From Arctopsyche grandis (taxonomy: Eukaryota > Arthropoda > Insecta > Trichoptera > Hydropsychidae): a stretch of 64,000 nt of DNA. Below the pieces are notes generated by a model. It saw only the letters and a program-made list of their open reading frames with translations. It was not told where the DNA came from and ran no database searches. The translations under genes and the position numbers were made by a program. Numbering within the stretch: position 1 is the stretch's first letter; every line of letters begins with the position of its first letter. The stretch spans positions 8,349,001 to 8,413,000 of the forward strand of contig NC_135358.1 of assembly GCF_051622035.1 (NCBI RefSeq), read 5' to 3'. Positions 7,370 through 57,905 of the stretch are shown one piece after another.

Positions 7370-10300
7370 ATGAGTAACCCTGGTGCGGGAAGAGCAAGAG
7401 GACGGGGAAGAGCCAGAGGGGAGAATCCTCAAGGGGGACCACAGCAAAATGTTAGTGGTGGTCGCGCTCGGGGTAGTGGTCCACCGAGACCAATGCAGCA
7501 ACAACAACAACAATACCAACAACCAGCACCGATGCAACGACAACCACCGGTACAGAAACAACCCATGCAACAGCAACGTCAAACCCCTGCCGCAGCAGGG
7601 CGAGCTGCTCCTCGATCTGGTGGTGTAGATAGAGCTATGTCGGGTCTATCGGTTGCAAGTACAAGTTCAGGTATGACACATAGTCCATATTTCATTTCTA
7701 TCGATTAATATTTATTTTATTAATAAATGTATGATAGGCCATGTGAAAAACTTATCTTTCAAATTAAAAACTTGGTTTTTTACTAATACATCAACTTCTA
7801 TTAGATTTTGACGTAAGAATTTTTTTTAGTGCTTTTTACGAATTTTTATCCATTATTTTAGTGGATATCTCTAATTAACTGTTGCTGATTATCATTAAAA
7901 CTAACTAGCTCGAATGTTGTAATAGTGCTATTATTTTTAATCAAACCTCTACTTAAGACAACTTGATTCAATCTCACTTCTTAATCTGATAAATCATATT
8001 TAACTATTATTATTATAATAAATAGACAGTTTATCACATCAACTTTAACATATGCATATGTATAAAATTATATTATTGTGTAATGACTATTTTACTTAAA
8101 GGTTATTGCTAAATAATGTAAGTAAAAATTTCACACTACCTCATAGCTTTAAGCGTTTCTGGTTTATAGTTTGATTTATTTTTCTGCTTCTAAAAATGAT
8201 TTTTGCTATTTTCAAATATGTAGGTGATCCATTGGCACTGACAGGTAGAGGTGGAACACGTTCTGGGCGATACCTTGAAAGTGCATGCTTACGAACTAGA
8301 CCAGAGAGATTCGATATAAAGACAGGTATGATCTTTTGTACAGCATTGTTTTTTTTTATTTTTTTTTTGTTATATTTTATATAATTTTTATTTTGTGTAT
8401 AGGTGTACAAGGAACTCCCGTTAACCTTGTTACAAATTACTTCAAACTTATGACTCGTCCAAACTGGACACTATATCAATATCGTGTTGACATAAGCCCC
8501 GAGGAAGATCGTACTGCAGTAAGGAAATCCTTATTGCGTGATCATCGCAAAACATTAGGAGGGTAAGTTTAATTGATTTTAGATTTCAATTATAAAATAA
8601 GTCGATCCGTGTTCTATCGTCCGAAGTTTTAACTCTTAAAAGATAGCATCAATTTAGTGGACGTTGTGTTTATATATAATACGCACAAAATTATAAATAG
8701 TTGTCATGAACTTCATTCAAAGCTTACGGTGAAGAAATATAATATTAAACAGTTTTAATCTATTTTTTAGAAATTATAACTCAATAGTGGTACAATTTTA
8801 TATAATGTCTGATTTTCATATATTTTCGTACATTTATTATATTTGTAGATACATATTTGATGGTACAGTCATGTACACTCCGTATAAACTAAATGCAGAT
8901 CCAATGAATTTATGCTCGAAACGAACTGAGGATGACCTTGCCATGTCATTAACCCTCAAGGTATGACTGGTATTTTTAATTTATTGGTTACACCACTAAT
9001 TCTGACTTGCATAACTCCAGGAATGTAAATTCTAACATTTGTAATTATCATGTGTCTTGTTGGCTTTTTAGCTCGTAGGGGATGTTACATCTGGTGACTA
9101 CGTATATATCCAAATATTTAACATTCTGATGCGGAAGTGCTATTCGTCTCTGAAGCTACAATTACTAGGTCGTGATTTTTATGACCAAGTTGCTAGGGTA
9201 GGTTTGATGAAATATATTATCAAAAAGTTATAATTAAAAGAAATGAGTGTTGATTCGAATAATTTTTTTTTTTAGATTGATATACGTGAGCATAAATTGC
9301 AAATCTGGCCTGGATATAAAACCACAATAGCGCAACACGAACAATCAATATTGATGGTAGCAGAGATTACACACAAAGTCATCAGGACAGACACAGTCCA
9401 TGAGACCATGAAGATAATTCAACAACAAGCTGGAAATAATTTCAAGGGTGTTTTTTGCAAGGAAATTATCGGTAAGCTAATCTTCCAGTGTTATACACAC
9501 GCATATTTTCTGTCTAATATTATAATATTAATTATGTACATCAACCACATTATTTTAGAATTTCGGATGATTTTTGTTTCATAGCTGTATATTAATATAA
9601 AATATGTTTTAATTTTTCTTTTATATATGAATTTTAGGTCAAATCGTTTTAACCGATTATAACAATAAAACATACAGGATTGATGATGTGGATTGGTCAC
9701 AAAATCCTCTAAGCACGTTTGTCATGAATGAGGAAACCATTACTTACGCAGAATACTACAAAAAAGTTAGTTTTTTTTGTATATTAACCAGGACTGGTTG
9801 AATCTTTGGAAAAAATTCAAACTTTTTCCCACAATCTGATTCATTTTTTAAAAAAAAAAAATTTTCCATTGGATTAATAATTTTTTAATATCTTTTTGAT
9901 GTACCAAAACTGGGTGCTTCGTATACAGTCAGCTGTTGCAAATCTTTTTTTTCATTCAATATTTTGTGTTGGTTTTTTTTTTTTTTAATACATATATCAA
10001 ACTAATAAAATGTACGCATTTGTTGTTGCCAATTTGTCAATAACACTGAGCAACAAAAAAAAATACCAGAGCGGAGACTAGCCAATCTTTACTAAGTTTG
10101 ACCCACTGAATTCGAATATGATATTGATTTTTGTTGGTGGGTGATCGTTTACGAGATATGAGCGTTTAAAAAAATCCGCGATTTTTACAGTTTTTTGGCT
10201 TTTGCGGTCTTTAACTTAAAATTTAGGATTGTTACGCTCAAAGTGAGTATTGGAATCAATAGTCAGATATTTTTCCTATTAATTGTTATATTTTATTGAT

Positions 10301-12926
10301 TTAAAATACTTCTAATTAATTGTCTTAGCGAATAGTCCGACCGCTGTACTCTGTGAGGTGGATTACATGCCATCTCGCTTGCACCCAAATATTACGCGCT
10401 ACAACCATATACACAACGAAAGCATTTAAATTGCAATTACCGCTTGAGTTAGTACGTTTAGATAAAAAAAAAATATTGAGATAGAAAACCAATCCTCATA
10501 AACGTGGTGAAATAAAAAATTTGCCAAATAAATGAAAAATAGCACGGAAAAAAAATCCATAAAAAAAAATATATTTTTGACTTAAAATTCGCTAGACAAT
10601 TATTTAGAAGTATTATAAAGCAATTAAATATAACAATTTATAGGAAAAATATCTGACTATTGATTCCAATACTCACTTTGAGCGGTAACAATCCTAAATT
10701 TTGAATTAAAGACCGCAAAAGCCAAAAAACCTTAAAAATCGCGGATTTTTTTAAACGCTCATATCTCGTAAACGATCACCCACCAACAAAAATCAATATC
10801 ATATTCGAATTCAGTGGGCCAAACTTAGTAAAGATTGGCTAGTCTCCGCTCTGGTAACTCAAAAACGTGATTTTTTGTTGTTCAGTGTAATCAGACTTCT
10901 CAATAAGACCTAAGCACGTGGAAAACTAGACTGATAGAAACACTGTCTCACATCTGCATACATTGTATGTTGATGAATCATTTGTGAGATTTGAACGCTA
11001 ATTTTTAACGATTGATTCCAACCGAAAAGCTAAGACTTCACAGCCCCCATTAATATTTACATTTTGAGTATATTTAATATAGAATATTGATTAAACTTAT
11101 GTAATATTTGTAGAAATATCAACTCACAATAAAAGATCTCGCTCAACCTTTATTATGTTCGCGTGCTAAAGCGAGAGATATTCGCCGTGGTTGTAGTGAA
11201 ATAGTCTTATTAATTCCCGAATTGTCTCGAATGACTGGACTCGACGACAAAATGAGGGCCGACTTTCGTCTGATGAAGTCCCTTTCGAACTATACCAGGG
11301 TTGGACCCGAGTCCAGAATAATGAAACTATTGGCGTTCAATAAACGACTGGCAACAGCCAAAGAGTGTGTTGAGGTTTGTCTTTTTATTAGTTTGAACTA
11401 AGTTTGGTTTTTTTGGGGTTATGTTATCTAATTTTTTCTTACAGGATCTCAAACAATGGGACATGAAGCTAGACGATAAGCTTACTACTATTGTGGGTCG
11501 ACAATTGCCCTGCGAACAGATTTATCAGGGAGAAAGGGGCGAGGTTAAATATAATGTATTGGACACCAACGATGGTTGGACCAAGAATCTTCGTGCCAAC
11601 AAATTCGTTAGCTATGGATTAGTTAAGGATTGGGCAGTTGTAACGATTACAAGGCTCAAACAGGATACAACCGCTTTCATAAGGATGGTAATGTCAGCTG
11701 GTAATGGCATGGGCTTCAATTTACCACCACCTCTAACATATGAAATATCTCATGACAGTATTGGGATATACATAACCGAATTGGAAAGAATAATTTCACA
11801 AAAAAATCCGTCGCTCATATTCTGCGTCATATCGAATAATAAAGTTGATTTGTATAACGCTATCAAAAAGAAGTGTTGTGTGGATAGAGCTGTACCTACT
11901 CAGATAGTCGTTGGACGGACGCTTTCTCACAAATCTGCCATGTCAATTGCCACAAAAGTAGCAATTCAAATGAATTGTAAACTTGGTGGATCCCCGTGGT
12001 CTACGATGCAACCTGTCAAAAACCTAATGGTAATTGGTTACGATGTGTGTCACGATCCCCGAAATAAATCAAACAGCTACGGCGCAATGGTTGCTTCTAT
12101 CAATCAAAACCAAACAAAGTATTACAACGCTGTTACGCAGCATAAAAATGGTGAAGAGCTTGCCAGCGAGTTTTGCGTTAATATAAAGATTGCCCTAAAA
12201 AAATTTAAAGATAATATTAAAGAACTCCCCTCTTGCATCATCATTTACAGGGATGGTGTTGGTGAAGGGCAAATAGCGTATGTGTACAATCACGAGGTAA
12301 TTTAGAGTGAATTTTTATTACGAAATATTATGATTGAATTTTTAATGTTTATATTTTAATAATTTTTTTATATTTTAGGTGGAAGTTATTAAGTCTGCAT
12401 TGCAGGAAACATATGGCACTGCTGAGTATCATCTTCAATTTGTGATTGTCTCAAAGAGACTCAATACCAGATTTTTCCAAAATTCTAAGAATCCGAGACC
12501 GGGAACCGTGATTGATGACGTTGTCACCAATCCCAACAGGTAAATAAATAAATTCATTATATGAATACAAATATTGTTCTTTTTCCAAATTTTCAACCTA
12601 CATACATACTATGATGTATCCATATTTTCATTTAAAATGACCAATCGTTAATTTTTTTCAGATATGATTTCTTTTTGGTGTCGCAGGCTGTGCGAGATGG
12701 AACAGTAGCTCCGACCAGCTACAATGTAATATTTGACAACACCAAAATGTCTGTTGATTACACACAGCGTATGGCATATAAATTTTGCCATATGTATTAT
12801 AATTTCTCTGGCCAAGTTAGAGTTCCAGCTCCGTGTCAGTATGCGCACAAGCTGGCTTTCTTGTCCAGTCAAAATCTTCACAATACGCCCCATGTGAACC
12901 TAAATTCAGTCCTATTTTTCTTGTAA
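7370..12926 (+). CDS. PIWI-clade Argonaute (Piwi/Aubergine type)
   Basis: Germline piRNA-binding slicer that silences transposons. Eleven exons join in frame to 887 aa: 7370-7670, 8224-8325, 8403-8562, 8849-8960, 9072-9197, 9276-9471, 9638-9765, 11114-11374, 11445-12296, 12379-12539, 12662-12926. The N-terminus is Arg-Gly rich (GRARGRGRARGE), typical of sites methylated for Tudor binding, followed by a Gln/Pro stretch (residues about 40-85). A PAZ domain lies near residues 260-380. The PIWI domain (about 570-870) keeps the slicer residues: Asp in GYDVCHD (about 662), Glu in NGEELA (about 700), Asp in YRDGVGEG (about 732) and His in QYAHKLAF (about 862). It ends in a hydrophobic FFL as in the family. 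All junctions are GT-AG. Intron 7 carries a long inverted-repeat transposon. Piwi and Aubergine/Siwi identity cannot be separated without a tree. Confidence 0.95.
10044..10887. mobile_element. non-autonomous element with ~300-bp inverted arms in PIWI intron 7
   Basis: Left end CACTGAGCAACAAAAAA and right end TTTTTTGTTGTTCAGTG are inverted and flanked by TAA on both sides (10041-10043, 10888-10890). The arms (about 10068-10330 and 10595-10860) are near-perfect inverted copies, for example CCAGAGCGGAGACTAGCC against GGCTAGTCTCCGCTCTGG. No ORF is present. The 3-bp TAA duplication fits PIF/Harbinger-like or similar families. A diverged relative is in the PPM1L intron at 46077-46380. Confidence 0.75.
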
Positions 12927-14872: not shown

Positions 14873-15205
14873 GTGCATACGGTTACCTGACAACTCGTTC
14901 ACAGATTTTCTGTAAACCGAGGATGCGCTCCAGGCAACACGTATACGGCCATCTCTTTCTCACCCCGTCTGTTCACCAAGATCTTGTTTACTATGCCATT
15001 ACGTATGCAGCCATCTCTTTCACAGACCGTCTGTTATCGGTGAACAGAAGGTCTGTGAAAGAGATGGGTGCATACGTAATGGCAGAGTAAACGAGATCAT
15101 GGTGAACAGACGGGGTGAGAAAGAGATGGCCGTATATGTAATGCCTGGAGCGCATCCTCGGTTTACGGAAAATCTGTGAACGAGTTGTCGTATCACCCAT
15201 GCATA
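14873..15205. repeat. large foldback palindrome
   Basis: Two arms of about 150 bp are inverted around a centre near 15040-15050. For example ACGGCCATCTCTTTCTCACC (14945) pairs with GGTGAGAAAGAGATGGCCGT (15114), and AGACCGTCTGTT pairs with AACAGAAGGTCT at the centre. The ORF spanning it exists only because both arms are open; no protein is inferred. It is probably a foldback transposon or a collapsed pair of inverted copies. Confidence 0.75.
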
Positions 15206-20852: not shown

Positions 20853-22449
20853 ATGCAGGCCAGGCGAAGGGTAGGCGGTCGAGTCCACAGTCCAGAGGGC
20901 CTGCAGGTGCAGGTGCAGGTGGGGCCGGAAACGGAAGCGGACGCGGACGCGGACGAGGACACGGAAGTGGAAGTGGAGTTGGGCAACGTGATGGCGTCGC
21001 GCGACCGCACCAACGAGCTGCAGGCGGCCGTGCGCTCGCTCAGGGGCGGCGCCATGGGGGGCGCTCTTCCCCGCCGCACCTCCTCCGCCCCCCACCTGTT
21101 GCACACCTACTCGCAGTTCATGCACACTGCTCGACTCATCAGCAAGAATATCACCAGCACCTATTCCAAGTTGGAGAAGTTGGCACTATGTATAACAAAT
21201 TCTTCTTCTTCTTCTTCTTCTCCTTCTCCAATTTAAACACAAACCAAATACCGTATTGGTTTGACTGTAATGCGAGCTTTTTATAAAAAAAGCAACACTA
21301 ACGTAGAAGGGGGTCAACTTCATTATTTTTATTAAAAAGCAGATTTGAAAAATAGAGGTCGTCGTATAATAGTAAAACTAATGTGGTAATTTGTAATAAT
21401 TTGTAGTATGTAGTATTATAATTATAAAAAGAAAAAGCTTTTATTTATCTATTTAAAGAATTCCATCTAAAAGATAGATCTATCTATCATCAATAGTTGA
21501 ATAGTATTTCTAGAAATATTTTCTTTCCTAATTCACATTTGATAAATCTTGAGCTGTAAATCATAATTTCCTCTACTATGAATTCTTGAGAAATCAGAAA
21601 CGAAAACTTATATCTCGTTTCTTTGTAACAAGTATTATTCGACCGTTAAAGTTATAAATTTAACTTTGGTTCTTTAAACTTTTTCTAGTGGCCAAAAAGA
21701 AGTCGTTATTTGATGACCGTCCTGCAGAAATACAAGAATTGACATATATAATTAAAGGAGATTTGGGATCGCTCAACCAACAAATAGCAAAATTAGGAGA
21801 AATGCCACGTGGACAGCGACACATTCAGTCACATTCTTCCAGCGTCGTACTCGCTTTACAATCACGACTGGCTTCAATGAGTACTCATTTTAAACAGGTA
21901 TATTGAATGCATTGGAATATTTAATAATCTTCAATTATATCTATATTATTTTAATAATGTAAATGTTTTACTCTCCCTCAGGTGTTAGAAGTTCGATCTG
22001 AAAATTTAAAACATCAGAATAATAGAAGGGAGCATTTCACTAAAGGATTGCCGCCATTGAAAGGTTCGGGCAGCTTAATGAACGATGATCATGTTAGTAT
22101 TGATGTAGACGGACTTTCGAAAAATTCGTCACTACAGAGCCAACAGATGGTTTTACTAGATGAAACTGATACATACGTAGCTCAAAGAGCAGAAACTATG
22201 CATAATATAGAAAGTACCATAGTTGAACTCGGTGGAATATTTCAACAATTAGCTCATATGGTCAAGGAGCAGGATGAAGCAGTTTCTAGAATCGATGCCA
22301 ATATTGAAGATGCAGAATTGAACATAGAAGCAGCACACTCGCAAATTTTAAAATATTTTCAGTCAGTGACAGGCAACAGGATGTTAATGCTAAAAATATT
22401 TGGGGTGCTAATATTTTTCTTTATATTCTTTGTTGTATTTGTATCTTAA
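20853..22449 (+). CDS. Syx5: syntaxin-5 (Golgi Qa-SNARE)
   Basis: SNARE for ER-Golgi and intra-Golgi vesicle fusion. Three exons: 20853-21189, 21689-21897, 21982-22449, all GT-AG and in frame, giving 337 aa. The conserved part starts MASRDRTNELQ (Met at 20991). An N-terminal Habc bundle follows (KLEKLALLAKKKSLFDDRPA, QELTYIIKGDLGSLNQQI, then RLASMSTHFKQVLEVRSENL). The Qa-SNARE motif is near residues 248-308 (TMHNIESTIVELGGIFQQL), with the zero-layer Gln in FQQLAHMV. A C-terminal membrane anchor of about 20 residues (IFGVLIFFFIFFVVF) ends the protein. Two in-frame starts exist: 20853 gives a 46-residue acidic extension beginning MQARRRVGGR; 20991 gives a 291-aa short form, like the two forms known for mammalian syntaxin-5. 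AATAAA lies at 22543-22548. The first exon is far more GC-rich than the others. Confidence 0.93.
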
Positions 22450-27800: not shown

Positions 27801-28110
27801 TAGGGGTCGTGGTGTGTTCTGAGTATGTTCCGCTTGAATAGAAATGCATTCCAGAGGGGTGCGGGCATTTGTGTGACGGGGGAGTATGCGAGTGCATCGA
27901 TAAGGAATAATACGCGATGTAATATATTCCTACATATGTCTAGTCGATTATAATAAAAATCTCAAAAAAAAAAAAGTATTTGCGACCAATTTTGTGAGCA
28001 GTTTTCTTGCGACCAACTTTCAAGTGCGACGGGAGATCCTCGCGAGCGATTTTCATGCGAGCGGTTATCCTGTTAGCGATTCACACATGACTAGCAATCA
28101 CTAATCACCA

Positions 28111-28309
28111 TAAAAGTAGAATGCATAGAATGGTCATTATTAAGAAAAATTTTCGTCTAAAAGCGAGCCATCGAAGAGAGAGACGGAAAGTCAAAAGAGA
28201 GACAAGAGAGAGACGAAGTTTAGCAAACAATGAACAAACTCTGCCGCGCAGAGTTTTTGTAGCAACATTTTTGGAGGCTGAGAGCGATTCTATGCATTCT
28301 ACTTCTATG
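28111..28309. mobile_element. MITE family E, copy 1
   Basis: Inverted ends AGTAGAATGCATAGAAT and ATTCTATGCATTCTACT. The interior includes GAGCCATCGAAGAGAGAGAC and CTCTGCCGCGCAGAGTTT. Near-identical copies lie at 29447-29638 and, inverted, 55554-55735 in an ATG4 intron. Non-coding. Confidence 0.8.
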
Positions 28310-28332
28310 CGAATCACCGAAACGCACTATTT

Positions 28333-28651
28333 TTTTTTACACCCTTTTCTTTTCAGGGATCATATATATATTTGAAAATATTGCACAAATTCGAAGAGAG
28401 GAAACAGTCGCCATATTCTATCCATCAAATCGCTCTCATGGGGGCGTCTGAGGGTAAAGAGGTGGGACAATGGTTCGGATCGAACACTGTCGCGCAAGTG
28501 CTCTAGTAATCATTTTTATTTTTATTCAAATCGATCTTTTTTTAATTACACAACGATGTTTTTAGATCTTTTTGCGTTGTTGTAATAAAATATTGAAATT
28601 TTATATTGTACGCATTTGTGTAGCGTGTTATAAATGTTTATATAAATGTGT
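28333..28651 (+). pseudogene. duplicated ATG4 exon 3 with flanking intron
   Basis: 28357-28505 is a near-copy of ATG4 exon 3 (minus strand, 55895-56041): same acceptor context (TTTTCTTTTCAG) and the reading HKFEERKQSPYSIHQ, ASEGKEVGQWFG. Differences I see are a 2-bp TA gain in the first codons (frameshift), one silent change, a Pro-to-Ser change and AAG to TAG at the last codon. The following intron matches the ATG4 locus to 28651, where a solo LTR interrupts it; it resumes at 29428-29446 and continues into the same MITE family. No other ATG4 exons are nearby, so it cannot encode a protease. Confidence 0.9.
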
Positions 28652-29427
28652 TGTAGGAATCTCGTCGTCGTCATCGTCATCGAAACATTCGAGAATATTC
28701 CGCAACAACAAACTACATTCCCGAAAACCAGACGTCGTACACCTGCAGTCATTATATTAAACTCAAGCGGAACGCCCCTACCAGTCGAGTGGAACCAAAA
28801 CGGTCGAAACACGCCGCCACCATTAAACCACATCGAGCGGAACGGCGCCAATCATTCCAGAAAATTCTACGCCTCGACAAAAGTGCATTCCTCGTTCACG
28901 CATCAACAACCACATGCGCTTACGCATCAACAACCACTTCCATCAATCGTTCCAGAAAATTCTACGCCTCGACAAAAGTGCATTCCTTTCTTACGCATCA
29001 ACAAACCACCACCATCGGTCAGGCGATTCCAGAAACACTATAAAAGGAGGTACAACCCAAACAACGCCAGTCGACCCACAGCAGCAAGTGTCGACATACA
29101 GCTCCTGACCAGCCACCACTACACTACGCGGACTTGGAAGATCAACCAGCCGGACGAGCCAGCAACACACTGCCGTATCCAGAGACCTTCCGAACATAGC
29201 CGAACAACGAGCCAGCAACACACTGCCGCATCCAGAGACCTTCTGAACATAGCTGAATGCCGAGCCAGCGACACTCTACCATATCCAGAGACCGCTGAAC
29301 GACATACTTTTGCCCACAAATACTATACCTTTGTACAACCATAGGCAAACAATAAAACTTTATAAAACTAGCACAACAGTGTTTCGTTAGGCCGGGATAC
29401 GGTCAACACATCGCTACCCCGCCTACA
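28652..29427 (+). mobile_element. solo LTR of a retrotransposon
   Basis: 776 bp from TGTAGGAATC to CCCGCCTACA (TG...CA with a 6-bp inverted end), flanked by the 4-bp direct repeat GTGT (28648-28651 and 29428-29431). The uninterrupted site is preserved in the ATG4 intron near 55750, which proves insertion. A TATA box (TATAAAAGG, 29039) and AATAAA (29351) outline U3, R and U5 in the plus direction. The U3 part contains a tandem duplication of about 80 bp (TTCTACGCCTCGACAAAAGT twice), and 29140-29290 has three copies of a unit of about 50 bp (GAGCCAGC-ACAC, CCAGAGACC). The long ORF across it is incidental. Confidence 0.88.
29039..29047 (+). promoter_or_regulatory. TATA box in the solo LTR
   Basis: TATAAAAGG followed by GAGG, about 310 bp before the LTR polyadenylation signal. 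It faces the striatin gene, whose start codon is about 1.1 kb downstream. Confidence 0.55.
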
Positions 29428-29446
29428 GTGTTTTTACTGTTATCAG

Positions 29447-29638
29447 CATAGAAGTAGAATGCATAGAATGGTCATTGTTAACAAAAGTACCGTCTAAAAG
29501 TGAGCCATCGAAGAGAGAGACGGAAAGTCAGAAGAGAGACAAGAGAGGGAGAGAGACGAAGTTTAGCAAACAACGAACAAACTCTGCCGCGCAGAGTTTT
29601 TGTAGCAACATTTTTGGAGGCTGAGAGCGATTCTATGC
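29447..29638. mobile_element. MITE family E, copy 2 (right end cut)
   Basis: Begins with the full end CATAGAAGTAGAATGCATAG next to GTTATCAG, the same junction as in the ATG4 intron, but stops at GATTCTATGC, losing about 14 bp of the other terminus. It therefore arrived together with the ATG4 segment. Confidence 0.8.
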
Positions 29639-30100
29639 TAATCACAGAACCGCACTGTTTGTCAATAGCCAAAACTGGCGAAGAGCGAGGAGAGAAAAGC
29701 CAAAGTGCGCGGGGAGACAGGTGGCAACACTTGGGACGGAAAAAGCCGTGTCGGTGTCGGTGGCGGTTGAGAGTGTTGGTGCGCGCGTGTGGAGCGGCGA
29801 TGGTGGTGTGCGTGTTTGTACGCGTACGATGGCGATGGTGATGGTGATGGTGGTTGCGTGTGATTGCGGTGTGTGAGTGTGTGGGAGTGAGTGAGTGAGT
29901 GAGTGAGTGCGGTGTCGGCGTGCGCGGCTGCGGCCCGCCTTTGGCTCCCCGCCGCCCCCCCGCCGCCCCGCACGCGCCGCTCCCCGCCGCCCCCCCGCCC
30001 CCGCCACCGCCACCGCCACCGCCACCGCCCCCGCCCCTGCCCCATGATAATCGGTGACAAGTTCGGCAATGGTGGGCATGTCATGAAAATACCGCCGGCC

Positions 30101-33100
30101 ATGGAGGACGGCTCCGGCTCCGGCTCTGGCTCGGGCTCGGCCTCCGGCTCGGGCTCGGGCTCCGGCTCCGGTTCGGGATCAGTGTCGGGCTGCGGGTCGG
30201 GACAGGGCGTCGGCTCGGGCTCCGGCTCCGGCCCTCCCCCGAACGGCGCGCTCGTTCTCACCGACAAGGGCGGCGACGAGCCTCGCCCCCAGCCCGACTA
30301 CTCCATCCCCGGCATCTTGCACTTCATCCAGCACGAGTGGGCGCGCTTCGAGCTGGAGCGCTCGCAGTGGGAAGTCGACCGCGCCGAGCTCGAGGTGACC
30401 CCCTCCCCCCTCGACTACCCCCCCCACCCCACACCCGCCCCGCTCTTACCAAACGTCAAACGTCTTGCTTGCAGGCTCGCATCGCGTTCCTGCAGGGCGA
30501 GCGCAAGGGCCAGGACAACCTCAAGAACGACCTGGTCCGCCGGATAAAGATGCTCGAGTACGCTCTCAAGCAGGAGCGGGCCAAGTTTCACAAGTTAAAG
30601 TACGGCGTGGAGCTGCAGCAGGGAGACGTCAAACCGCCGCCACCCGAAGACGGCGAGCCCGAAACAGAGTTGCCCCCGAGTCTCACGTGGAGGCAGGGCC
30701 GACAACTCATCAGACAATACTTTGAAGTAACGTTCTTCCTCAATATACACACACACACACACACACACACATATACGCTCGATTGATCCTGACTTTATAT
30801 TCTTTTGTTATCAATTTACAATACTATTCTCATTGTAGGTCAAAATCACTCAAGCTGTGTTCAACCGTGCTATTCTCGCGTTAAAGCCTTACAAGTATCC
30901 CTAGAGATATGAATAATGAATGCCCTACTTCTTTGTTAATCCGACTCATTTCTATCGGCACAAAATGACTCGTGATTTTTTTTTTTTTGTATATTTTAAA
31001 CACTACATATTAATGAATTTGCAATATTACTTGATGGTCCTTTTTGGTTGAGCCACTCATGTAGTATGCAATACAAATGCACTTGATAATTTCCTTTTTT
31101 TTTTTGTTTTGTTTTGTTTTGTTGATTTTTAACCTGTTCATTATTGAAAATGTATCTATTTTTTTTTTGTCCATTTGTCACAACTCAAATGAGTCATACG
31201 TTTGAGTCACAAATTGAACACGTATGATGGGCCAACTGTTCTGTGGGGCCTCTAGGAAATATTATAAACGAGACCCGTTACTACTTACATCAGCTGGATA
31301 GGAAAAGTAGGACTAAGAGTTAATATAGATAAGACTAAATTACTGAATAATAAGTATTGCATGCCCGCCATGGACATTAGACAATAAGACGGTAGAAGTA
31401 GTTGAAATTTTTTTTATCTAGATCACATCATTGACATGTTCGATGATATTGTTGTGTAGGGGTGGGTGGAGGATCCAAGTAAAAGGCCAACAGTCGTTTC
31501 ACAGCATTTATTGATGATTCAGGAGATATACGCACTGTCACTGCTCCGTCCAGAATGACATGATATCGCCTACGTACCGCCTTATAAAGGGTAGATCTCT
31601 CAGGACGCCTAATCTGTTTACCTGTTGTATAGTCACGTATTCGGATATGTATTTCCACGACATTGGGTCTCCCCGTACCGATTCTGAGAAATAACTAATA
31701 ACGGTCATTGTTTAGTCTAAATGCACTTAGAGTCCAGATATAATCCTTCAAAGTAAGTGCATGCATTAAGTTAATCCGATAACAGATATCCGTTGGTCTA
31801 AGTGCAATTCGCTCAATCCGCGGCGTACGTAACAATATAAAGACGTGAGAAATTAGTATGGAGTGCATTCGGGCGAATGAAAGCCGTTTTCAAATCTAAA
31901 ATGCCATTTTGTCGAAAGAAGAAGATCTTCAAATCAATGTCTTGCCAGTGATGATGTATGTATACGGAATGTGGACATTGATCAGTAGAATGCTGCATAA
32001 AGTACTCAAACATGCTCGGCATAAGTAGGAGAGATATAAAACGGAATATGTGGGTGAGAAGTATGATAAGGGTAGTTGATATAATGGAGAGAATAAAGAC
32101 ATTGTATTAACTATAGGTGGGTCACATAGCTAGAAGAATGAATAATAGGTGAACAAAAGAAGTGGTAGAATGTAGGAGGGTGGAAGGAAACCACGCGTTA
32201 GATGGGTTGGTGAAATTAGAAAAATGTGTGGGATGAGAGTGGCCCAAAACAGAGACGAATGGAAGCGAATTGGAAAGGTCTTCATCCGACAGTGAATAGC
32301 AAAAAACTGTAAATTAGGATTAGTATTTTGATTTTATGATGGAAATATGTCACTTCTGATCACGGCAAAGCTTTTCAGCTGCTCGTGTGCAAATATATAA
32401 ATATAATACTCGTCTCTTTTTGAATCATTAAATAAATATCATCTGGGCCGACTCATAAATTTTCAATGTGTTTGCAATCCTTTCTTTCAAAAATAAATGT
32501 GTATTCAATTTAAATAAAGAATTTTGTGAAAATAAATGCACAAATTTATTTTCATTGGAACTGCGAAGTAAACAACAGCTGATGCAGTTCGTACTAAAAA
32601 GTACCACAAAAGACTTTGTTAAAAACAATAACGTTATACATTTCTACCCATAGATAAAGAGTTGTATTTGTGTTAGTTGCAAGTTTTGACGAGATAAATA
32701 CTATTTTTATAAAAATTTCAATGCACAGGGTTTGTCCGAATCTCGATGAAGCAACATTTGAGCTGAGCCTGTATGTAAATATGTAGTTACGGTATTGAAA
32801 ATTTTTTGCAAAATTTAAACGGAAATATATATAAAACAGATTAACGAATTGCTCTACTCGTATTAATGCTGACATTATGACTAAAGTTTGGAATTATCTT
32901 TTGTTATTACAATAAATTCTTTGTTTTATTTTGTGGTCACTCTACGTATAAAATAACAGAGTGAAGCTAATAATAAAAAGCTTGTAATTAAAATAATTCT
33001 TATATTAAAGGATTGTTATAAATGCTGATGCTCCTCTATTTACTGCAGTTTCAGACAATTTTTCTTAAATGCTTGTTACTTGAAATGATATTCAAATAGA

Positions 33101-35431
33101 AAATATACATATTTCAGTAATATTGATCAATGCATTTAAATATAATTTATGTGCAGTAATCAAATTATTTTATAATTTGAATTCATTTTCAATCTGATTA
33201 TGGTTTATCATTGATAAACTTATTGATTGTGGAGAATGTGATATTTATTATAATTAATCTACCTGAAAATATCATTTCAATGTTGAAAAAATTGTTAGTT
33301 TTTATTGTTTAGTTTTTCTATTACGCTGCATGTACATATTTTTAAATATACATAATATGCCAACTACTTTGATACTTGGAACAAGATAAGATTGCTATAA
33401 TAATAATTATTCGATGGACATTTTTTAAATGCTATGTATATGTGAAAATAATATATTTATATGTATGTATGACTTTCAGGAAATAGGATATGCTGAAACT
33501 GTGTTGGACGTTCGCTCAAGTAGAGTTCGTACTCTACTGGGACTCAACAATATCCCAGATCAAGATGATAACATTAACACCAACATGAATGGGAATGAGA
33601 CTAATAAAAGAGGACATGATACTCAAAGTTAGTCAGTTTTAAAAAATTATATGTCTGAAATTTAGTATATGTATTTTATTTTTGGTAACGATTTATCAAT
33701 TTATGTTACAGTTATGAAGGATAGCTTACTTTTTGTTTTATAATTTCAGTACGACGTTCTCAAAATACAGTAAAAAAGGGTCAATTTGTCGGATCTGGTG
33801 GACAAAATAATGATTCCTCCATGATGTTGGATAGTGAAGCAGCTGTAATAGCAAATTTTGAATTCCTCTCGGGGCAAGACATAGATGTAGATGACATGGA
33901 AGATTTAGAAACTAAACAGCCATCAAATATGGCAATGAATCAAGGTTATTCATTGTTTGGATTAGATAATAGAAATAACACACTCTTTATGAAATTATTT
34001 TAGTTAGGATATTTATAACCAACGTGTTTTATTTAACAATTTATTACAGATGAGGTTGATGTTGAAGCGGAGGAAGTTTTAAATGAATTGAACCTTTTGA
34101 CCAGTAATGCAGAAGAGTATGGTGTGAAATCAGACGATTATGGTATTTTTTTTAACACATGGATGTCGGATGCACTTTGTATGAAATAGAATTTCATTAC
34201 TGTTACATTAAATATTTTAATTATGTTTGAATAGGAGGTGGAGGTTCAGGTGGTGATGAAGAGTCTTTGGCTCTTGGTGAACTAGCCCAACTTTCAGTAA
34301 CAAATGAGGCTGATGCATATGATCTTGTTTTAACTAAAGTTTCTTTTCGAAAAACCTGGAATGCTAAATATACATTGAGATCACATTTCGATGGTGTAAG
34401 TAATAAATGATTTAAATATCTGTAGAATCGAAAATAATTTTCATTCAAAAGAAATATTTTTCGGTCTTTCATTGATGTATATAAACATATTTAGGGTACA
34501 TTCTTGTTTATTTCAGGTTCGAGCGTTAGCTTTTCATCCAGTGGAACCAGTGCTGATAACAGCTTCAGAGGACCATACATTGAAATTATGGAATTTACAA
34601 AAAACTGTGTCGGCAAAGAAATCGGCTAGTTTAGACGTTGAACCTTTATACACATTCAGAGGTCATCAAGGTGCTGTTCTTTGCTTAGCAATGGATATAG
34701 GAGGTCATAAATGTTGGTCGGGTGGATTAGATGGTGCAGTTCGCACCTGGAATGTTCCTCCACCTACAATCGATCCATATGACGCTTACGAACCACATGT
34801 TATGGGTCCAGCACTTTTAGGACATACCGATGCTGTGTGGTCTTTATCACACTCCCATCGCCGTTTGTTATCTGCGTCGGCTGACGGAACTGTACGTCTA
34901 TGGAGTCCTTATAATTCACAAACTTTGGTATCCACGTTGCGATCGGAAGCTGATGGAGCCCCCACCTGTGTCGATTTCTGTGCAGAAGGCACTCGTGCTG
35001 TTGCGTCATTTCAGAGTGCCAACACTGTGATATTTGATTTGGAAACAGGTAAACCAGTTATGAGACTCGAGGGAGAAGGTTGTGGAGCATCTCGGGTTGT
35101 ATCACATCCTTCCTCACCTCTCACGATCACTGCTCACGATGATCGTCACATTCGTTTTTGGGATAATGATTCAGGTCAGTTAGCGCATTCGATGGTTGCA
35201 CATTTGGATGCCGTCACTAGTCTGGCTGTCGATCCAAACGGCTTATTTTTACTTTCTGGTAGCCACGATTGTTCCATACGCTTATGGAACCTTGACAACA
35301 AAACGTGTGTACAAGAAATCACTGCTCATCGTAAGAAATTCGATGAAAGTATTCTTGATGTAGCATTTCATCCTACACGACCTTACATTGCAAGTGCTGG
35401 TGCTGACGCACTCGCTAAAGTATTTGTTTAG
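30101..35431 (+). CDS. Cka: striatin (Cka), STRIPAK scaffold
   Basis: Regulatory B-type subunit and scaffold of the STRIPAK PP2A complex, acting in JNK, Hippo and cytoskeletal signalling. Seven exons: 30101-30394, 30475-30726, 33480-33627, 33750-33944, 34050-34142, 34235-34395, 34517-35431; 685 aa. The N-terminus is a Gly-Ser tract. Then comes the striatin signature ([20 protein letters not shown]), containing a caveolin-binding-like FIQHEWARF, and a coiled coil ([20 protein letters not shown]). A middle acidic linker follows. The last exon encodes the WD40 propeller ([63 protein letters not shown]). I prefer the ATG at 30101 (GGCCATGG context) over 30044, which would add 19 residues. The first two exons are very GC-rich. 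Intron 2 (2.75 kb) holds a LINE relic and a solo LTR. AATAAA is at 35694-35699. Confidence 0.93.
31262..32310 (+). mobile_element. decayed RTE-like LINE (family X) in a striatin intron
   Basis: Broken frames read, in order, [12 protein letters not shown] (31315), FYLDHIIDM (31410), [20 protein letters not shown] (31840), [20 protein letters not shown] (32020) and [20 protein letters not shown] near 32190. These are the RT palm/thumb and C-terminal blocks of insect RTE-like LINEs. Stops and frameshifts are numerous. A solo LTR (31450-31784) splits it. Confidence 0.65.
31450..31784 (-). mobile_element. solo LTR inserted in the LINE relic
   Basis: 335 bp, TGTTGTGTAGGGG to CCGATAACA, flanked by the 5-bp direct repeat GATAT (31445-31449 and 31785-31789). 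On the minus strand it has ATCAATAAATGCTGTG, a polyadenylation signal, so the LTR is oriented opposite to striatin. The 76-aa minus-strand ORF lies inside it and is not a gene. Confidence 0.8.
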
Positions 35432-44994: not shown

Positions 44995-47900
44995 ATGGAA
45001 GACGAGCTGGAGGACCGCGTGTTCTACCAAACGTACGCTTCGCACGCCAGGCTGGTGGCTCGGGCTTCGCTGCCCGGCTGGGGATGGGGATGGGGATGGG
45101 GCCGGCTCGCGCGCCTCTACCTGCTCCGCTACGAGGTGGTGCTCTTCAGCCTGGCCATGGTGGTGGTGCTGATGTACATCCAGGCCGTGGACGTGTGGAG
45201 CCGCGCGCTGCTCGGCCGACTGGGCTCCAGGTCCCGCTCGTCGGTGCTGCCTTCGCCCACCGGCAGCTCCTCGGAGCACCGCTCCTGGGACCTGAAGACG
45301 GCCAACGCGGCCGCCTACGCGCTGCAGGGGCGGCGCCCCCGCATGGAGGACCGCTTCGTGGTGGACGAGGACGTCCGCCGCACCGGAGTGTCTCTCTTCG
45401 CCATATTCGACGGCCACGGCGGTGAGTTCGCGGCCGACTACGCCAGGGACCACCTCATCCCTCTGCTCTCGGACAAGATCCTCGCCGTCAAAGACGTGAT
45501 ATCCGGCAAAGCCACCGACGACAAATTACCCCAACCCGACAACAGCAACAAGTCCCTCAAAGAAAACCCCCTCCTCGTTGACCGCAACAAAAGTTTCAAG
45601 AAGACCATGAGCATGGCCGACGACACCGCCAAGAAGGAGGTGACCGATCCCGAGCTGCTGAGCAAGCTGAGTCTGTCCCGACCCATCACTAGGGAGGTCC
45701 GTCCGACGTCGTCCACTCCCGTCAGAACGGTGCCAACTCCTCTCTCCGCGTACGTAGACGCCGGCAAAATCAATTACGGCAAACTGATCTCCGATCAAGT
45801 GTTGGCTGTGGACAAATCGCTCGTCGAGGAGGCGAAGAAAACTATGGACGTGGCCGGTACGACCGCTCTGATCGCTATTTTGGAGAACGAAATGCTCACC
45901 GTAGCCAACGTCGGTGACTCTAGAGGTGTGATGTGCGATTCTAAAGGCAATGCTATCCCTCTGTCTTTCGATCACAAACCACAACAAGCAAGTATAATTA
46001 TTGTCTTTTTAACTTCACTGAAAAATTACCAAAAATTACCGAGCATTTTTTCAAACTCAATTTAATATCATTCACCGAGAAAACCAATCCTTATAAACGT
46101 GGTGAAAAAAAAGCAGGAAAAAATCTTTAAAAATTAAACTGGGAAAAACACCTGACCATTGATTTCAGTACTCAATTTAGGCACATCAATATTAGATTTT
46201 AAGTTTTAAGAATTAAGCAATTTTCCCGCAAAATTAAAAAATTGCGCAATTTTTAAACGTTCACATTTCATAAACTAGAGCAAATTTAGAAAAATTATTA
46301 CCACGTTCGATTTCAGTGGATTAAACTCTTTAATAAAGTTTTGATTCCGGGTTCTAGTCCTTTCTGAAATTCGTCTGCCATTTAAGTCACTTTGCTAAAT
46401 TTGACAGTCCTAAGTTGAAAACTGTGAATATGCATAATGGAAAAACATTTTTATATCTATTTATTTATTATTTAGATGATTTGCAGGATACAATTCAATC
46501 CAACAACGTGGTTATATATTTTTGACTGTTCATTATGTTGATTAATAAAGGGCGGTACAAAACAAGAAAGCAAAAAGCATGGTTTTTTATGAATTTAATA
46601 ATTGCGATCTTTGTTTGCGCCAAAAGAATTCATGGACTGCCGAAGACTATTGATGACGGTTTTTTTGGGTTTATAAGAAGAAAATTTAATCAGAAGAATG
46701 TTTAAAAAATGAATACATTTAACAATTTATGTAGAATTTAATATTAGGTCATTTTTTTTTGTATTTGCTCGGCAAACAAAGATGTCTTAAAATAGTAATA
46801 TGTAAAAGAACTCTGTCTATTGTCTCAATGGAAATGTTCTTTTTTTTTGCTTTGTCTTTTTAATAATACAAAATTAGAAAACGTGCATAATAATTAGGAT
46901 CAGAATATTTTTACAAAATACTTTGTCTAGCTATGATTACTGAAAGGCTAATTAATTCATCAATAGACTTTATTATGAACGATTTTATTAAATTAAAATA
47001 AATATTTTTTATTTATATATTTTCGGATAGTTTTTTATAGCGAGGCCAATCAAACCCAAATATTTTATATATAAATTCCATATTTTTTAAAAATTAATTT
47101 CCTATTTTTGGGTTACATTTAATTCTAATTGTAAAGACGTGGAAATCATCATCATTATCATCTACAGCCGCTCACCATCCACTGCTGGATGAAGGCCTCT
47201 CCAACACGCTTTCGCTCGTCTCTATTTTGCGCAACTCATATCCACCCATCTTCCCTGCGGTCTTCCTTTTACCCTTTTACATTCTCTCGGGTACCATTCT
47301 AGCACTTCTTTTGTCCATTCTTCTAGCCACGTGGCCCATTGGCATTTCCATTTCAATCTCTTTACCTAATTTCACTATGTCCACTACCCTTGTAATACTT
47401 CTCACCCACGTATTCTGCTTCCTGTCTTTCCTCGTTATGCCGAACTTACAGCTTTCTATACTTCTTTGAGTGCATTGGACTTTGTGTTCAATGTCGAAGT
47501 TTCACATCACTGGCATAACAGTTTGATCAAGATCTTTTTATTCTTCAGGCAGAGTGGCATTTTTAATTAAAAAGAAAACATTCATTCGTCCAAATGCAAT
47601 CCATCCTGATTTCACACGTCTCTTTATTTCTTTTTATTTACTACCGGACATTTTTATTATTTGGAAATAATCAACTGAAATTATTTATATTGTATTATGT
47701 ATATGTTAGGCGAAATTTATACTCGGTGTAAGCTTACATTGCTAGCATTATATCAACACAGTTGGGTTTAATAATGAATATAATCAGTCACATTTCGAAT
47801 AACACATATCAAACAATCGCAATATATTTTTTTTGCAGATGAGAGAACAAAAGCGAATCAAAGAAGCGGGTGGTTTCATAGCTTTCAACGGTGTTTGGAG

Positions 47901-53356: not shown

Positions 53357-56300
53357 TCAAAGAATTTCAAACTCCTCATCAGAATCATCAAATTGTCTGT
53401 CTAATTCGTCAAAATCTGTAAAAAATATTCATATGTATTAGATTAGATATAAATTGAAAAAATGCATTTTAGTGCAACTTAATGTTATAACATTGTACCG
53501 TTTAAAGCCTTTGCTCCCAATTGCTGCTCTAGATCACCGTTATTGGGACCCCAGTGTAGGGGACGTTCTTCGCACATTTCAAACAACGGTTGACCTTCTT
53601 TCATGACGCCACTTTCCAAATTTAGGCACAGATCATCAAATTCTGACTTTGTATGACAGAGGAAGCACTGCAAAAAGTTATTTTCGTAACTGGCCAGATA
53701 GCTAAAATCTTTAGAAATATGAGAAGAAAACTTACAACTGCAACAGAGGGATCCATAGCCAAAATTGGAATTCGTGATGCAAATTTGCAGTGATAAGTTG
53801 CATCTATATCTCTCTGATCACTTGTCAATTTATTCTGAAAATGAAAAATTCTAAATTGTGGAATTTCATTGCAATAATATTTCGGTAAATTTATGACAGT
53901 TCATCATTATTATCACGTGTTGCAAATGGTAAAAGCAAAAAAATCAGTCCATAAAACCTAAGTCCAGTCAGTTGATAGGATTAAGTTTGCAATAGCTGGG
54001 AAATACGCGTCAACTGTGCAGTGCCTGGGTTCATTCTCAAGGAAAATTCCTAGAATTTGGGTCAGTTTTATGGTTTTTGGGATATGACATTTTCTATAGG
54101 ACTCGAAAATCATTCCAAATTGTGAATTACGAAATAAAATTTTGTATGAAAACACTATTGGGGGCCAAAACCTCGCCTTAAACTTCGATTTAACCGGGTT
54201 TTACTAATTGGAACAGTACTAGGATTGTTGGGTTGAAGATTAAGTTTTATGTAAACTGGTTATTTGTTAACCGGTTAATGTGATTTATCAGTTTAGGAAA
54301 CGGGTAAGTTATATAAAGTTCAATTTGGTTAAAATTTAAAATGATTTGTTATTACATATGTAATAACAATCATACACTACATATGTAACATTTATATTAG
54401 ACCGGAGCGAAAAACGCGAATTTCCATCGATGGACCTAGTAGAAAACTTTCATTGTATCAAGGGAACATTAAACAGTAAATTTCATCGATTTTAAACAAT
54501 ATCCTCGCAGTTCGCAGTTTTTACTTTAGCCTAAGGTACATATCATGTATACCTCAATATATCCCGCTTTTTGTGTCGTATGTGGATCCAAATATAGAAT
54601 TTCTTCTCCCACACAACCAATCAAATATAATGCTTGGTTGGGTTTGCCACCGATCACTCCCAGAGATTGAGGTAGTTGAAAACACAGCTGTGGATTTTTT
54701 TTATATCAAAAGTCAATTACATACGTAATTAGTTTATAAAATTGATTATTTCTTAACTGACCTTAAGGCCATTTACATATATAGGATTTATTTCATTAAG
54801 TCCTAGTCTTAACGGTATTATTAAAAGTAGCGGCTTCCATTCGTCAATATGACTAGTATTAGCGATTTTTTGAGATTTTTCGTCAGTTCTCTTACTTTTT
54901 TTCGATTCCTTTCCTTTTTTTTCCTTTTTTTCCGATTTTTTCGTGTCTCGCTTAGCTGTGCAAAGCTTTCCTATACAATAATTTTGATAGAAACATTATA
55001 TGGCATGTTTTGTTTAAGTACATATATTGCAATATAATGAAGAAAACGATACTCACTAATATCATCTTTTACCACTGTGTTATCTAGTGCTACGTGAATC
55101 GAAAGTGAACTCCAATTATCATAAACTACAAGTTTTCTACAAATAAAACACGTCGATTTAAAAAAATAAGATAAAAAATACATCCATCACATAATATAAC
55201 AATATTTAAGAAGTACAACATTTGTTTGATAAAGTTTTATATGCCATTCTATAACAAATTTAGAAGTCTATTCATTCTTTTGATGCGTTCAAAAAATAGT
55301 ATGCTATGAAGAGAGCTAAGAAATGAGCCATTTTTTTATACAGTTGTTATTCTGCTTGTCAAACTTACGTTTTAAATAGTGAATTTAAGCAATCGCTCGC
55401 TTCTTATTGTAGCTTTTGATTTACATACAATCGCATCTATTATAAGGCTTTAATACAGTGTTGATTTCACAAATGTAGGTCAAAACCAATTTTTTTTTAA
55501 TTGTAATAAAATTCGAACTTGAATGATCACCCAAAAAAAAGTAGACTGATAAACATAGAAGTAGAATGCATAGAATAGCTCTCAGCCTCCGAAAATGTTG
55601 TTGCAAAAACTCGCGCGGCAGAGTTTGTTCATTGTTTGCTAAACTTCGTCTCTTTCTCTCGTCTCTCTCTTTGATGGCTCACTTTTAGACGGTACTTTTG
55701 TTAACAATGACCATTCTATGCATTCTACTTCTATGCTGATAACAGTAAAAACACATTTATATAAACCATTTACACGCTACACAAATGCGTACAATATAAA
55801 ATTTCAATATTTTATTACAACAACGCAAAAAGATCGAAAAACATCGTTATGTAATTAAAAAAAGATCGATTTGAATAAAAATAAAAATGTTTACTTGAGC
55901 ACTTGCGCGACAGTGTTCGGTCCGAACCATTGTCCCACCTCTTTACCCTCAGACGCCCCCATGAGAGCGATCTGATGGATAGAATATGGCGACTGTTTCC
56001 TCTCTTCGAATTTGTGCAATATTTTCAAATATATAGGATCCCTGGAAAGAAGAGGGTGTAAAACATGAAGCGTCCAGACGACATTGACACACGAGACAAA
56101 GGAAAACGCCACCTGGTTTCCGGCGTCCAAATCCAGCTGGCGGCCATGTGCACCTTGACGAGGGCCTGCGCCAGCACCATCTGTCCGCAACGAAGCATGC
56201 AGCCCCAGCCCCGGTCCGAGGTGAGGCCATCTTCGTCGCCGATCGGGATGAACCCCTTGCGATACGTCAGCCATATGATCGACGTCACGTCGCGCCGAAT

Positions 56301-57519: not shown

Positions 57520-57905
57520 TACGGGTCTACGTGACGAGACAGAATGTTAAATGACAGAAAACGCAAATATCGGAAGGCAAAGATCGAAAATCGAAAGATC
57601 TTAAGTCGAAAGATCAAAAAAAAAAAAAATGGTGCATGGTAAACGGTACATACTCACTTAATTTGCGCGAGCAGGATACAACAGGAACAAGAGGAACATG
57701 CTTTTCCTCCCGTATTTTGCGCGCGCACATTAATACGGGAGGAAAAGCCTGTTCCTCTTGTTGCTGTTGTATCCTGCTCGCGCAAATTAAGTAAGTATGT
57801 ACCGTTTACCATGCACCATTTTTTTTTGATCTTTCGACTTAAGATCTTTCGATTTTCGATATTTGCGTTTTCCGTCATTTAACATTCTGTCAAGTCACGG
57901 AGACC
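57520..57905. mobile_element. foldback element F, intact palindrome
   Basis: Two arms of about 185 bp are inverted around a centre at about 57725 (GCGCGCGCACATTAATACGG). Examples: GACAGAATGTTAAATGACAG with TGTCATTTAACATTCTGTC-type sequence, GGTGCATGGTAAACGGTACA with TGTACCGTTTACCATGCACC, and AATTTGCGCGAGCAGGATAC with GTATCCTGCTCGCGCAAATT. Non-coding. Partial copies lie at 4739-4850 plus 5341-5440 and at 56865-56965. Confidence 0.8.

Follow-up and report, generated by a model that had tools for sequence, protein, structure and literature searches.

An ATG4 gene fragment in front of striatin in Arctopsyche grandis, probably copied there in one repair event through a shared MITE

How did a single exon of ATG4, together with intron sequence from either side of it, come to lie in front of the striatin gene, and does it do anything there? 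Both loci lie within the stretch of the Arctopsyche grandis assembly that was analysed here as a whole (64,000 nucleotides; NC_135358.1, positions 8,349,001 to 8,413,000) and that is referred to as the window. A preliminary description had reported a near-identical, inverted copy of ATG4 exon 3 about 27 kb from its parent and had attributed it to transposon-assisted or template-switch repair. The copy is found where it was reported, and the anatomy of the MITEs around it supports the suggested origin in a sharper form: the copy probably arose in one DNA-repair event, in which two MITEs paired at one side and about 5 bp of microhomology made the join at the other, and now looks like a dead fragment.

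The ATG4 copy and its parent gene

The complete gene had been said to remain in place, and ATG4 is indeed still at its own locus. Exon 3 lies on the minus strand at 55895..56041 and matches the Pfam family Peptidase_C54 (E 1.8e-14 on 55896-56043), as do exons 1 and 2 when joined; other readable minus-strand stretches at this locus are presumably later ATG4 exons. Striatin runs on the plus strand, with a first exon at 30044..30394 (coding start 30044; end set by eye at a GT donor) that matches Pfam Striatin on 30044-30385 (E 1e-9). WD40 repeats at 34472-35428 are perhaps the C-terminal part of striatin. The window also contains coding stretches for a SNARE domain (21982-22446) and a PP2C phosphatase (44995-46062), and a Piwi domain (E 1e-41) in the open frame 11421-12302.

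Positions 28335-28652 match ATG4 positions 55750-56063 (minus strand) at 95.3% identity over 318 columns (E 1.3e-143). The ATG4-derived piece is about 320 bases long, lies about 27.5 kb from its parent on the opposite strand, and reaches from the closing bases of intron 2 through exon 3 into intron 3, most of which it includes, up to a MITE. By alignment, the 3′ end of intron 2 with its splice acceptor occupies 28333..28356 (+; its upstream join is hidden in a T run), the former exon 28357..28505 (+), and intron 3 a first part at 28506..28651 (+) and a last part, GTGTTTTTACTGTTATCAG, at 29428..29446 (+), separated by an LTR. When realigned from 28339, the copy differs from ATG4 by 9 substitutions in 309 ungapped columns (2.9%), with two gap columns in exon 3 and four in intron 3. 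Substitutions number 2 of 18 in intron 2, 4 of 146 in exon 3 and 3 of 145 in intron 3. The low count in intron 3 disposes of a match restricted to conserved codons, which the preliminary description had named as one outcome that would contradict it; the introns match too. Because the copy includes 18 aligned bases of intron 2 and 145 of intron 3, it is not a retrocopy: a processed retropseudogene is excluded, and the duplication of a gene fragment at the DNA level, as first described, holds. An assembly artefact is unlikely, since the copy is 2.9% diverged, has its own LTR and flanks, and lies on one contig with its parent.

Across the genome (475.7 Mb, 189 contigs), the fragment and its parent are the sole two places found (two candidates scored, both matched). 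In a self-comparison of the window (hits of at least 60 bp, E 1e-10), this pair is the longest match between separate loci. Other repeats in the window include two directly repeated 270-bp segments that are 95.6% identical (10064-10333 and 10587-10856) and two palindromes of about 300 bp, at 14889-15189 (92.7% self-complementary) and 57574-57869 (91.7%), which are perhaps fold-back elements.

The copied exon carries the frameshift and new stop that had been noted earlier, the first from a 2-bp insertion and the second from a change of AAG to TAG at the last codon. In addition, CCG has become TCG (Pro to Ser in WFGPNT), and one change is silent. Both splice dinucleotides, the acceptor AG and the donor GT, are kept. 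The copy looks like a decaying pseudogene fragment.

The inserted LTR and the question of function

The first part of intron 3 in the copy ends in GTGT and is followed by a solo LTR (28652..29427, +; TGTAGG...CCTACA), after which GTGT stands again. Intron and MITE sequence continue beyond the LTR, as the preliminary description had stated. The GTGT duplication is absent from ATG4, where AAATGTGTTTTTACTG is uninterrupted, and the LTR was therefore inserted after the duplication. The fragment had been called recent, which holds only in a relative sense: at 9 substitutions in 309 columns, the duplication is probably older than the LTR inside it, and the LTR much younger. At least 68 places match the LTR family (40 of 1351 candidates scored), and two other genomic copies round to 100% identity with this one. 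Of 20 loci compared, counting the present one, 14 have equal 4-bp duplications at both ends of the LTR (by eye). Paired LTRs were found twice, with starts 2.6 kb apart on contig C8 and 2.0 kb apart on contig C4, and with equal 4 bp at their outer ends (GACG and GTGT, respectively; by eye). The element thus has what marks a solo LTR: TG..CA ends, a short target duplication and relatives with paired LTRs. TTGGTGACCCC follows the right end of the LTR at three loci (L068, L073 and L077), as expected for the interior of an element, and the LTR here is therefore in plus orientation. One two-LTR element of this retrotransposon family (L041 and G000:C8:29893946-29897346) lies inside a copy of the MITE family described below, with MITE sequence and GACG at both outer ends.

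The LTR also bears on whether the copy, however it arose, could function as a cryptic 5′ exon of striatin or as a source of small RNAs against ATG4. The kept donor GT and the acceptor with its pyrimidine run would favour such a role, but the exon is broken by its frameshift and stop, and the LTR, with an AATAAA at 29351-29356, stands between the old exon and striatin, where in plus orientation it would tend to end upstream transcripts. Moreover, reading towards striatin is ATG4-sense rather than antisense, so that antisense RNA would need a leftward promoter. We consider a functional copy very unlikely, and the sequence, as far as it goes, indicates no function for the fragment.

The flanking MITEs, the junctions and the proposed origin

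The ATG4 copy sits between two MITEs of the same orientation, M1 upstream (28109..28309, +) and M2 downstream (29447..29637, +), which flank 1,137 bp, 776 bp of these being the later LTR. The interval first described, 28333..29660, does contain the copy but left out M1, which is part of the structure. M1 has at least 41 matching places (40 of 702 candidates scored). The member of this family in ATG4 intron 3 (55554..55735, minus strand; flanks GTTATCAG and TTTATCAG) has at least 43 (40 of 459 scored). Fifty-seven other copies were compared, drawn from 30 loci per query with one shared and the places of the two queries left out; they are the best matches to M1 or the ATG4 MITE, not a random sample. 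An 8-bp target duplication is exact in 40 of them and has one mismatch in 8, while 7 have none and 2 have unclear ends. Among the 40 exact duplications, position 2 is T in 32 and position 7 is A in 31. Target duplications of 8 bp with the form nTnnnnAn are those of hAT elements, and these elements, which are also short and end in terminal inverted repeats, are accordingly hAT-like MITEs.

M1 was inserted in the terminal region of an older dispersed repeat (27960..28108, no strand assigned), which ends in the left target duplication of M1, CTAATCAC (28101-28108). At least 52 places match the older repeat, its own among them (40 of 338 candidates scored), the others being 73-92% identical, and 11 pairs in inverted orientation were counted by eye. 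Its end motif, AATCACCGAACCG, is found again in the window and in MITE loci. At one other locus (L022, G000:C13:3368077-3368280), a further copy of this MITE has inserted into the end of a different copy of the older repeat; the insertion point (GTAATCAC) is the same and the orientation reversed, which suggests a preferred MITE target site in that end.

Each MITE beside the fragment is followed by a version of the same 23 bases: flank A (CGAATCACCGAAACGCACTATTT, 28310..28332, +), which leads through a T run into the ATG4 sequence, is a diverged duplicate of flank B (CTAATCACAGAACCGCACTGTTT, 29638..29660, +), with 19 of 23 bases equal (by eye). The start of flank B coincides exactly with the M1 boundary. 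Flank B opens with the 8 bases of CTAATCAC unchanged, flank A with 7 of the 8; M1 without the insert would therefore have a perfect target duplication, and flank B is, on this reading of the sequence, the probable original right flank of M1. The first 15 flank bases are the recurrent repeat end, which makes the flank weaker as a unique marker, and the remaining 8 bases, 7 of them equal, are what speaks uniquely for a duplication. That flanks A and B are instead two separate ends of the older repeat is disfavoured by this agreement of 7 of 8 bases past the motif; none of the 23 other places listed for the motif continues with CACTNTTT. The difference between the flanks, 4 of 23, exceeds the 2.9% of the fragment, which tells against the proposed origin unless the join was made by error-prone synthesis. 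At this far junction, TGTTT is common to flank B and ATG4 intron 2 (by eye) and the T run is lengthened, an apparent microhomology (TGTTT/TTTTT) of about 5 bp blurred by the longer T run.

M2 is apparently chimeric, its 5′ part being that of the ATG4 MITE and its 3′ part like M1 and the family, with the change-over at 29502-29509; 15 bp are missing at its 3′ tip, between TTCTATGC repeats. Columns 6-57 hold 8 differences between the ATG4 MITE and M1, and at each of them M2 has the state of the ATG4 MITE. At six of these M1 alone departs from the family, and at the other two the departure is common to M2 and the ATG4 MITE and recurs in 11 and 1 of the 57 other copies. In columns 66-189, M2 agrees with M1 at all 8 events that distinguish the two. 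One GA run of unequal length was not counted here; in it, two columns of M2 match the ATG4 MITE and not M1. The chance of so perfect a two-block order is 2/12870 under random order. By hand count, M2 differs from the ATG4 MITE at 0 of 57 sites in the 5′ part and 8 of 108 in the 3′ part, which points to a moderate surplus of differences in the 3′ part (Fisher p = 0.05 when compared with the MITE 5′ part alone, 0.008 when intron 3 is added to it and 0.03 with the whole of the upstream sequence). The intron 3 bases that abut the 5′ end of M2 are those that abut the ATG4 MITE, whose 5′ part was apparently the donor of that of M2.

From the layout, identities and target duplications observed, we infer a repair pathway and a single event. 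At the start, M1 would have stood upstream of striatin near the end of the older repeat, with a family copy in ATG4 intron 3, 27 kb off and inverted. After a break or a stalled fork beside M1, a repairing strand would have paired with the ATG4 MITE through MITE homology, copied through intron 3 and exon 3 into the end of intron 2, and been joined by the TGTTT microhomology to the flank of the striatin site, 23 bp beyond M1. The strand may also have gone out by microhomology and come back by MITE homology, with an identical product: M1, flank A, ATG4 fragment, chimeric M2, flank B. Flank B is apparently the original flank of M1, and a single insertion would reach from the repeated 3′ half of M1 in M2 back to the join at flank A. 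Afterwards the copy would have lost its frame and M2 the 15 bp of its tip, and a retrotransposon would have left the solo LTR.

The 3′ part of M2 admits another reading. Apart from two changes peculiar to M2, it is the family consensus, without a private M1 state, and the putative change-over accordingly draws on the clustering of differences, not on shared derived bases. The private 3′ changes of the ATG4 MITE (6 substitutions and two deletions) may therefore postdate the duplication. If they do, the strand may have returned through TTCTATGC, an 8-bp sequence that spans the M1 3′ end and the first base of the target duplication; ATG4 fragment and MITE would then have been copied as far as TTCTATGC with microhomology on both sides, and M2 would derive wholly from ATG4. 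M2 does end exactly at TTCTATGC, and its near-consensus 3′ part would fit an ATG4 MITE that had not yet mutated. However, every private change of the ATG4 MITE must then have come after the event and fallen in the 3′ part, with the 5′ part left untouched, and we judge this course of events unlikely.

Repair through MITE homology also accounts for the structure better than transposition of an enlarged element, in which the ATG4 MITE and exon 3 would have moved together through a false left end (end bypass). A MITE directly adjoins the fragment, and similar 8-mers, CGAATCAC and CTAATCAC, stand on its two sides, as such a movement would leave them, but the likeness runs 15 bp past these 8-mers (12 of 15 bases, by eye), further than a target duplication accounts for, and M2 is without its 3′ terminal 15 bp, making this origin highly improbable. 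Ligation of the ATG4 fragment into a filled-in, staggered break of about 23 bp in the flank would yield the direct flank duplication on both sides, yet is scarcely credible: the exact start of the duplicated flank at the M1 boundary, and an insert that finishes with a MITE of this very family, would both be accidents.

Comparison with known systems

Transposon-assisted capture of gene fragments is already known, and the ATG4 copy looks like another case of it; an identical case was not found in the literature searched, and absence from print is not claimed. The proposed repair resembles long-tract gene conversion ended by microhomology joining (Hartlerode et al. 2016, PMC5104497) in combining homology-led copying on one side with template switching and microhomology joining on the other. 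There, however, breaks were induced in a mouse-cell reporter and the sister chromatid was copied, whereas here the event would be natural and the homology that of an ectopic MITE.

The copy also resembles the single-copy Pack-TIRs formed by gap filling in animals (Tan et al. 2021, PMC8277862). As in Pack-TIRs, a DNA fragment from the same chromosome stands, as a single copy, between two TIR elements of one family, a junction shows apparent microhomology, and the transposon was there before the capture, as we infer for M1. In contrast to Pack-TIRs, the captured ATG4 piece adjoins one element and is not inside it, and the parent gene itself carries the same MITE. Against the definitions used in that study, the internal sequence between M1 and M2 falls within 100-5000 bp, and the copy falls within 80-120% of the parent length without the LTR and outside it with the LTR, but the parent is not free of TEs in its flanking 100 bp, since the copied segment reaches the ATG4 MITE. 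The Pack-TIR pipeline left out parents whose flanking 100 bp held TEs and would therefore probably have filtered out the ATG4 case. At 27.5 kb from its parent, the copy also lies beyond the class of less than 15 kb that is reported to hold 56.9% of Pack-TIRs (PMC8277862).

A tentative and rather doubtful generalisation is that intronic MITEs serve as portable homology, through which exons could be copied into any site with the same MITE while microhomology closes the far side. If this were true, surveys that discard parents near TEs would miss the class, and exon scattering could be common in MITE-rich animal genomes. The ATG4 copy is one well-preserved case, in which the junctions, donor, recipient and event order of a transposon-assisted exon duplication can be made out, and it points to a class, that of parents carrying the element themselves, which is filtered out by at least one published survey (PMC8277862).
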